DNA of 35,457 nucleotides from Clostridia bacterium (GTDB lineage: Bacteria; Bacillota; Clostridia; DSM-8532), in contig JAIFNI010000252.1 of the NCBI GenBank assembly GCA_020047785.1, positions 1 to 35,457 of the forward strand, read 5' to 3'. The translations under genes were made by a program, and so were the position numbers. Below are positions 2,756 to 23,011 of the stretch, in pieces. Numbering within the stretch: position 1 is the stretch's first letter; each line of letters starts with the position of its first letter. Under the pieces are notes generated by a model that saw only the letters and a list, made by a program, of their open reading frames with translations, was not told the DNA's origin and did no database searches.

Positions 2756-2896
2756 TCAGGTCGTTTCAGTCCGGATCCAGGTTGGATTCAGTTTGGAATC
2801 AGGTCGGAATCAGTTCGGTTTCAGGTCGTTTCGGTCCGGATTCAGGATGGATTCAGGTCGGAATCAGTCCGGATTCAGATCGGTCTTAGGTCTGAT
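2756..2896. repeat. Imperfect 11-bp tandem repeat array, about 13 units, consensus TCAGGTCGGAT
   Basis: Units read by hand: TCAGGTCGTT, TCAGTCCGGAT, CCAGGTTGGAT, TCAGTTTGGAA, TCAGGTCGGAA, TCAGTTCGGTT, TCAGGTCGTT, TCGGTCCGGAT, TCAGGATGGAT, TCAGGTCGGAA, TCAGTCCGGAT, TCAGATCGGTC, TTAGGTCTGAT. The array abuts the LacI stop codon at 2897-2899. Confidence 0.93.
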
Positions 2897-3979
2897 TCAT
2901 GCTTGACCAACAGGTTTCACCGCGCCAAGATAGTTGTCCTTCCCATAGGTGTTGTACCTTGTGTACAGATGGAAATCGATGAACATTTTCTCATGGGGTG
3001 GCTTTTTTCTATCGAGCAGATAGTCGGCCATGCATTTCAGCGCGTGATAGCCCTGCAGATACGGATTCTGGCAGATCGCCGCACTGATGGTCCCCTCCTG
3101 CAGAAGACGGTTCACATCCTCGGACATTTCGTGGCCTACAAGCACAAGTCCCCTGCGGCCGCTGTCCTTTACGGCCATCGCGGTTTCCTGAAGAAAACCA
3201 TCGACACTGTACACGCTTTGCATGCCGCCATCGACCGCCAGCTTCCCCAATGTGACATTGTAGGCATCTTCACTGTACATCTCATACGTCGCAACATCGA
3301 GCTCGATGTCGGGATATGCCTGGCACAGGACTTCCTGAAACCCCGTCAGCCTCAGTCGGCATTCGGGAGACAATGCGCCGGATTTTGCATGCATGGCTGT
3401 GATTGCCATGCATTTTCCGCGCCCTGCCGAAAACTTTCCGACAAGTTCCCCCGCAAGTCGCCCAATCAGCAAATTGTCCGGACCGACATAGAACTGTCGC
3501 CCGAAAGCTTCCTCATCATCATTGAGCATGCCCAGTGGAATGCCATCACCGATGATACCCCTTATTTTACCAGCGACAGGACCGAGTCCCTCGGGGACGA
3601 GGAGGAAGCCGTCCGTCTTCCGTCCGACAGCCTCCTTCACATGCGACAGCACCAGATTTCCGTCCATCCTGTTCAGGCAGACGCAATTGACGGAAACCCC
3701 GCAGAAGGAGAGTTCGCGTCCGGCACATTCGATTCCGGCCCGCATCTGATGCCAGAAAGGCGCGTTGTAAGGCATGAGGACGGTAATGTTCTTCCGGCTC
3801 TTCAGCGAAAGGGAGCGGGCGTGCCTGTTGGGCAGGTATTTCATTTCCTCGATTTTTTCAAGGACCCGCTGCCGGGTGTCCGCATTGATGTCGCTCTTGC
3901 CATGCATCGCACGCTCCACCGTACCGATGGATACGCCCAACGCCTTTGCGACATCCTTCAAGGTAATCCTTTCCTGCAT
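2897..3979 (-). CDS. LacI family transcriptional regulator
   Basis: MQERITLKDVAKALGVSIGTVERAMHGKSDINADTRQRVLEKIEEMKYLPNRHARSLS: LacI HTH plus hinge; periplasmic-binding-like C-terminal domain. Confidence 0.95.
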   Translation of the reverse strand: MQERITLKDVAKALGVSIGTVERAMHGKSDINADTRQRVLEKIEEMKYLPNRHARSLSLKSRKNITVLMPYNAPFWHQMRAGIECAGRELSFCGVSVNCVCLNRMDGNLVLSHVKEAVGRKTDGFLLVPEGLGPVAGKIRGIIGDGIPLGMLNDDEEAFGRQFYVGPDNLLIGRLAGELVGKFSAGRGKCMAITAMHAKSGALSPECRLRLTGFQEVLCQAYPDIELDVATYEMYSEDAYNVTLGKLAVDGGMQSVYSVDGFLQETAMAVKDSGRRGLVLVGHEMSEDVNRLLQEGTISAAICQNPYLQGYHALKCMADYLLDRKKPPHEKMFIDFHLYTRYNTYGKDNYLGAVKPVGQA

Positions 3980-4096
3980 GCTGAACCCGCCTCTCTCAGG
4001 CATCGGATAGATATTGCCTGCTCTTTTTCAGAAAAAAAGGCACATCAAGCCATTCGTTTCTGAAATTCATAGAGCAGGTTGTTTTTCCAAGCCCGT

Positions 4097-4114
4097 ACCG
4101 TAAACGTTTACGGT
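4097..4114. promoter_or_regulatory. Putative LacI-family operator, perfect 18-bp palindrome ACCGTAAACGTTTACGGT
   Basis: Exact palindrome with central AACGTT in the divergent region between the LacI gene and the acyltransferase gene. Confidence 0.72.
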
Positions 4115-21760: not shown

Positions 21761-21848
21761 CAGGCCGGACCATTCTACAAACCAGGCCGGATCAACCGAC
21801 AAACAAAGGCGGACCTACCAACAAACCAAGCCGGATCAACCGACAAAC
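21761..21848. repeat. Four imperfect ~22-bp direct repeats leading into a terminator stem
   Basis: CAGGCCGGACCATTCTACAAAC / CAGGCCGGATCAACCGACAAA / CAAAGGCGGACCTACCAACAAAC / CAAGCCGGATCAACCGACAAAC. Confidence 0.88.
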
Positions 21849-21871
21849 CAAGTCGGTTGATCCGGCTTTTC
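21828..21871 (+). terminator. Rho-independent terminator, 17-bp perfect stem
   Basis: AAGCCGGATCAACCGAC (21828-21844), loop aaaccaa, GTCGGTTGATCCGGCTT (21852-21868) followed by TT; the arms are exact complements. Confidence 0.88.
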
Positions 21872-22133: not shown

Positions 22134-22931
22134 ATGATCAGTCTGGGTGTCAACACGGTACTCTTCAAGGCGTTCCCATTTTTAGAGGCGGCCAGGGCCA
22201 TCAAGCTGGCCGGATATGACGGACTCGAAATCTCGGCCATCCAAGGCATGTGCGAGCATCTGGACCCGGTGAACTACAAGGCGCAGAAGCAGGGTATCCT
22301 GGATGCGCTGGAAGAAACCGGCCTGAAGATGCTGGCCGCCGAAGTGGCGTCCCTGGATGCGGAGCGGCTCAAATGGGCATGCGAAGCGGCTGCCGAAATC
22401 GGTATTCCCATCCTGAATGTGGGCCCCGGTGGAAAGGCCGGCGATGAGGCAACCTTGCTGCAAAGCATCGAAACGCTCATGGCGCTGTCCGACATGGCCG
22501 CATCTCATGGCGTCACCCTCTGCTGCAAGGCGCATGTGGGTGCCGCCATTCACAATACCGAAACCACCCTTCGGGCCATGGCGGCGATTCCCTCGGCCGG
22601 ATTCGGCATCGACATGGACCCCAGCCACATCTTCCGCGCCGGCGAAAACCCGGCTGTAGCACTTCCAGCTGTTCTCTCCCGCACCCGGCACATTCATATC
22701 AGGGACTGTCGGGGACCCGGCCCTTCCCCTGGTGAACCGGCGTTTCAGGCTTGCGGACGCGGAGACATCGATCTGTTCGGCTACTGCAAAGCCATGACGG
22801 AAGGGTCCTATGACGGCCCGGTCTGCCTGGAAGTCATCGGGCCGGAACAAAACATGATGCAGGCCATCACCATAGCCGCTGAGAGCTACGGCTACATGAA
22901 TGCGTGTCTGAAGAAGCTGGGCGCAAGATGA
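22134..22931 (+). CDS. Sugar phosphate isomerase/epimerase, TIM barrel (AP endonuclease family 2)
   Basis: MISLGVNTVLFKAFPFLEAARAIKLAGYDGLEISAIQG...GFGIDMDPSHIFRAGENP...HIHIRDCRG...GRGDIDLFGY...YDGPVCLEVIGPE; RBS GGGAGG. Confidence 0.9.
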   Translation: MISLGVNTVLFKAFPFLEAARAIKLAGYDGLEISAIQGMCEHLDPVNYKAQKQGILDALEETGLKMLAAEVASLDAERLKWACEAAAEIGIPILNVGPGGKAGDEATLLQSIETLMALSDMAASHGVTLCCKAHVGAAIHNTETTLRAMAAIPSAGFGIDMDPSHIFRAGENPAVALPAVLSRTRHIHIRDCRGPGPSPGEPAFQACGRGDIDLFGYCKAMTEGSYDGPVCLEVIGPEQNMMQAITIAAESYGYMNACLKKLGAR

Positions 22932-23011
22932 CAAGAACCACATGACAAGCACCACATGAAAATCACCGCATGACAAGCACCGCAGGACAAGCACCACATG
23001 AAAATCAGTGA
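22928..23011. repeat. 14-bp tandem repeat, about 6 units, consensus ATGACAAGCACCAC
   Basis: ATGACAAGAACCAC, ATGACAAGCACCAC, ATGAAAATCACCGC, ATGACAAGCACCGC, AGGACAAGCACCAC, ATGAAAATCAGTGA; starts on the isomerase stop codon. Confidence 0.93.

Follow-up and report, generated by a model that had tools for sequence, protein, structure and literature searches.

An 11-bp tandem array at the stop codon of a clostridial LacI-family gene is most likely a slippage-born minisatellite, one of many in its genus

The closest described counterparts of the array studied here are the intergenic minisatellites and VNTR loci of bacteria, for example the variable segments of E. coli (PMC2884548), which consist of imperfect copies lying head to tail between genes, with a motif specific to the locus and no protein of their own. 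The TAACTGA heptamers of Beggiatoaceae and Cyanobacteria are one motif repeated at about 170 loci, with stops in all frames; some overlap stop codons and most end just before gene starts (PMC4679880). Borg elements of archaea carry genome-specific tandem repeats whose intragenic periods are divisible by three, some of them starting inside the end of an open reading frame (PMC9879509). A Rho-utilisation (rut) site is a stretch of about 80 nt of untranslated RNA that is C-rich and G-poor and has spaced pyrimidine-C (YC) dimers. Our array, which has about 13 imperfect units of 11 bp and spans roughly 2748-2899 between a LacI-family gene (lacI) and a PIG-L gene, shares these structural features of the bacterial VNTR loci and is set apart from them in that arrays here reach four to five times the density seen in family relatives and are concentrated after stop codons. 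Like the heptamers it is a short intergenic direct repeat with stop triplets in the unit, a period (7 in their case) that covers all frames and a position over the upstream stop, but in this genome motifs differ from array to array and DNA close to starts is avoided. The LacI array, diverged and set in a bacterial genome of 55% G+C, differs from the perfect, A-rich repeats of Borgs. It resembles rut sites in giving, downstream of a stop codon, an RNA with more C than G and evenly spaced YC dimers, but this composition is not common to the other arrays of the genome. We regard the LacI array as a bacterial minisatellite, diverged and specific to its locus, in an array-rich genus; it is most likely a harmless by-product of copying, not a switch for the adjoining operon.

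The window (the whole stretch of DNA analysed, 35,457 nt) corresponds to contig C269 in an assembly of 3.92 Mb that is 75% complete. The closest named match of a transketolase encoded in it is from an uncultured Clostridia bacterium (68% identity), and a search of Rfam gave zero matches across the window. The features needed below are these (position, strand, description and basis):

277-1080, minus: RraA-like protein, candidate operon gene, start possibly further in (Pfam PF03737)
963-1931, minus: amidohydrolase, candidate operon gene (Pfam PF04909)
1928-2629, minus: PIG-L deacetylase, gene 1 of the candidate target operon (Pfam PF02585)
2657-2672, no strand assigned: palindrome CCGGTAACGTTACCGG, candidate operator for LacI ahead of the PIG-L operon (CCGNWAACGTTWNCGG match)
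2748-2899, minus: 11-bp minisatellite, sense unit TGAATCCGACC, 14 units including the LacI-stop unit (TRF, lag-11 match, unit list)
2756-2820, no strand assigned: 65-bp second-order repeat, copy 1, one 10-bp and five 11-bp units (TRF, lag-65 match)
2821-2885, no strand assigned: 65-bp second-order repeat, copy 2 (TRF, lag-65 match)
2897-2899, minus: TGA stop codon of LacI, in register with the unit starts (unit list)
2897-4003, minus: LacI-family regulator with HTH and Peripla_BP_4 domains, 368 aa (Pfam PF00356, PF13407)
4098-4113, no strand assigned: palindrome CCGTAAACGTTTACGG, candidate operator for LacI ahead of its own gene (CCGNWAACGTTWNCGG match)

The pattern CCGNWAACGTTWNCGG has only two matches in the 3.92 Mb assembly, namely the palindromes that precede lacI and the PIG-L operon, and this supports a local LacI regulator that would control its own gene and the PIG-L operon as a self-contained regulon. 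Neither candidate operator overlaps the array. A first-pass annotation had described the array as starting exactly at the LacI stop and ending about 85 bp from the operator of the PIG-L operon; the position holds, with about 80 bp measured to CCGGTAACGTTACCGG and with the correction that both genes lie on the minus strand, and the stop (TCA at 2897-2899 of the plus strand) is indeed in register as the 14th unit.

The 11-bp periodicity is real and far beyond chance. TRF gives 10.9 copies of period 11 (score 91, 2765-2883), and the lag-11 self-match of the array is 0.63, compared with 0.25 (sd 0.04) in the remaining window and with 0.39 as the highest value that 5000 shuffles gave, so that the locus has the head-to-tail copies of 7-100 bp, in excess of chance, by which bacterial minisatellites are recognized. 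Units start at plus-strand positions 2756, 2766, 2777 and so on to 2886, and read in the direction of lacI each is TGA followed by about eight bases (consensus TGAATCCGACC). A stop triplet heads 12 of the 14 units (11 TGA and one TAA), and from the unit spacing these stops fall four to a frame in all three reading frames. Within the unit, conservation is higher at TGA and at two C positions than elsewhere, which could reflect selection. A period of 65 bp is stronger still (2.2 copies, 85% match, score 205, 2752-2892; lag-65 self-match 0.83). As each 65-bp period holds one 10-bp unit, the two 10-bp units are not separate length changes but a single deletion that was later duplicated with the block, and growth of the array took two steps or more. 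Much of its length comes from that one later duplication, so the present length is no evidence of length conservation and the proposal of an old array held at constant length fails.

A 21-base double-unit pattern, searched through the 3.92 Mb assembly with up to two mismatches, gave six matches inside the LacI array and four single ones on other contigs (two mismatches each); TRF run on those four whole contigs found no array at any of the single sites. The motif is therefore locus-specific, the similar arrays that had been envisaged elsewhere in the genome were not found in this assembly, and the single-motif, many-locus pattern of dispersed repeat families (REP, TAACTGA type) is not seen. 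A search of a collection of genome contigs for LacI gave no ortholog, and none was found in 60 relatives, the nearest genome included, where the best match had 32% identity and belonged to another family. The PIG-L homolog of the one genus-mate sampled (48% identity) lies in a different operon, and a comparison with this genome through the neighbouring genes gave paralog-level matches or none.

The wider population of arrays was surveyed with TRF (score at least 50) and a simple codon-usage gene caller in 738 kb of contigs from the same genome (about 19% of it), 172 kb from the genus-mate, eight pooled genomes of the family and 80 loci from wider Clostridia. The own-genome sample holds 62 intergenic arrays (8.4 per 100 kb), which cover 6% of intergenic bases, and the genus-mate 13 (7.6 per 100 kb); the figures for the family pool and wider Clostridia are 1.6 and 2.1 per 100 kb, so that the density in the genus (about 8 per 100 kb) is four to five times that in the family and wider samples. 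Extrapolation from the sample would give about 330 intergenic arrays in the whole genome. Periods in this genome range between 7 and 100 bp without a peak at 11, and are divisible by three in 40 of 48 intragenic arrays vs 17 of 62 intergenic ones, as expected if the effect on protein acts as a filter. The LacI array thus appears to be one of hundreds of dissimilar short arrays that follow genes of this genus. Loss of mismatch repair was considered as the cause of the repeats and rejected for this assembly, in which full-length MutS and MutL are present; the genus-mate, whose genome is 83% complete, has MutL and no match to MutS1 over the cut-off.

Arrays are not placed evenly with respect to genes. 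Divergent gaps make up 24% of gap bases but hold only three of the 57 placed arrays, and arrays take up 1.3% of the bases 0-25 bp before starts vs 7-11% of the 100 bp that follow stops. Of the 41 arrays in co-directional gaps, 29 begin no more than 30 bp from the stop upstream, where 18 would be expected at random (0 of 2000 simulations reached 29), and 17 of the 41 overlap that stop; it should be noted that an open reading frame entering a stop-bearing array ends there by definition, which somewhat inflates the association with stops. Stop-spanning arrays copy the stop in register (116 TGA vs 37 TCA on the sense strand, with 22 arrays favouring TGA and three TCA), and near-stop arrays overall contain 171 TGA vs 74 TCA against a background of 679 vs 644. 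These patterns might suggest a mutational process of the genus, going beyond relaxed selection, that seeds arrays at stops (for example through a link to termination of translation or transcription) and copies stops downstream at hundreds of genes, with the LacI array as one product and some arrays recruited as insulators. We consider this unlikely: per possible start, stop-spanning arrays begin only 1.5 times as often as arrays do in the next 45 bp, a difference that is not significant (p 0.15), so simple tolerance suffices and a hot spot at the stop codon is not supported, though some preference for seeding at stops may exist. Placement is explained by tolerance, in that duplications after a stop spare the protein and DNA on the promoter side is constrained.

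We therefore favour, with a probability of about 0.75, the reading that the LacI array is a minisatellite born of slippage, seeded at the lacI stop or beside it and enlarged by the 65-bp duplication, with no regulatory function beyond that of a spacer. The first-pass annotation had offered three options (a phased protein-binding or bending array, a copy-number-variable spacer tuning read-through from lacI, and a neutral slippage product), and the last is the best supported. An 11-bp unit starting with TGA would have multiplied downstream of the lacI stop, its origin at or beside the stop being suggested by the observed register, and the six-unit block of 65 bp would, as its internal structure indicates, have been duplicated later. 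The result would be one member of the genus-wide set of unrelated intergenic minisatellites found in our samples, which build up from stops onward and are depleted before starts. Since the copies follow the stop, leaving the protein unchanged, and lie here outside both operators, they would be tolerated.

A helically phased array that binds protein or bends DNA, acting on the operator about 80 bp off, fits a period close to one turn beside a regulated promoter, but is extremely unlikely. The units do not all face the same side of the helix, as had been claimed, because at 10.5 bp per turn the phase drifts by about 154 degrees from first to last (mean resultant length of unit phases 0.65); no run of four or more A or T occurs inside the array, which thus has neither the constant rotational phase nor the A-tracts of phased or bent DNA, its motif forms no further array in the 3.92 Mb, a preference for 11 bp is not seen among the arrays sampled from the genome, and both candidate LacI operators are situated elsewhere. 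A cluster of back-up stops, in which the 12 stop-headed units, four per frame, would halt read-through or frameshifted ribosomes on the lacI mRNA, fits the spread of stops that an 11-bp period produces and the good preservation of TGA (unit positions 1-3 each 13 of 14). This too we consider highly unlikely, as one back-up stop would be enough, seeding at the stop would produce the bias too, and in 26 stop-spanning arrays the stop triplet is kept no better, at the level of significance, than other triplets (0.64 vs 0.56, p 0.17).

For a spacer that tunes read-through the one positive support is composition, and its strongest form would possibly be termination by Rho, the best functional rival given a C-rich, G-poor array and a minus strand on which a search between lacI and PIG-L gave no intrinsic terminator. 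The RNA that begins exactly where ribosomes come off lacI would act as a rut site, being untranslated, C-rich and G-poor with a YC dimer about every 11 nt, and Rho would block read-through so that the PIG-L operon stays under its own operator. The sense strand of the array has 46 C vs 27 G (C minus G at the 96th percentile among array-free 3' regions) and CC dimers about every 11 nt, as the composition of a rut site demands, and 30 of 32 family genomes, that of the genus-mate among them, have Rho. The even spacing of CC, however, is an automatic outcome of the repeat, post-stop arrays as a class have no excess of C over G (mean -0.026 vs -0.007, p 0.18), and this assembly, 75% complete, gave no match to the RNA-binding domain of Rho, although that absence is likely to reflect its incompleteness. 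The LacI array itself has an RNA fold z-score of -2.3; as a class the arrays fold no better than other 3' regions, and 3' regions with and without arrays do not differ in C minus G, fold z-score or terminator-like hairpins. We consider it unlikely that the array serves Rho, and retain slippage followed by tolerance as the explanation of this locus.

Taken singly the locus is ordinary, and it is the population that is useful: a genus with a several-fold higher load of intergenic minisatellites than its relatives, placed after stops and scarce ahead of starts, in which MutL was found in both members and MutS in the present assembly, offers a natural sample for the origin and tolerance of tandem duplications.

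Other arrays were noticed in passing. At 212-250 of the window, just past the stop of the RraA-like gene, is a short 11-bp array (3.5 copies of CTTCACACCGT), the unit of which is unlike that of the LacI array except for the word TTCA. At 22928-23007 a 14-bp array (ATGACAAGCACCAC) begins at the TGA of a gene and copies it, and by our own gene calls the next gene starts about 35 bp beyond. On another contig (C313; 6592-7361 of locus L029) there is a long 24-bp repeat of about 32 copies, which is probably coding, its period being divisible by three. Finally, the 22-bp array that follows a gene at 21764-21856 of the window has as its unit the left arm and loop of the next intrinsic-terminator-like hairpin (GCCGGATCAACCGAC...GTCGGTTGATCCGGCTTTT).
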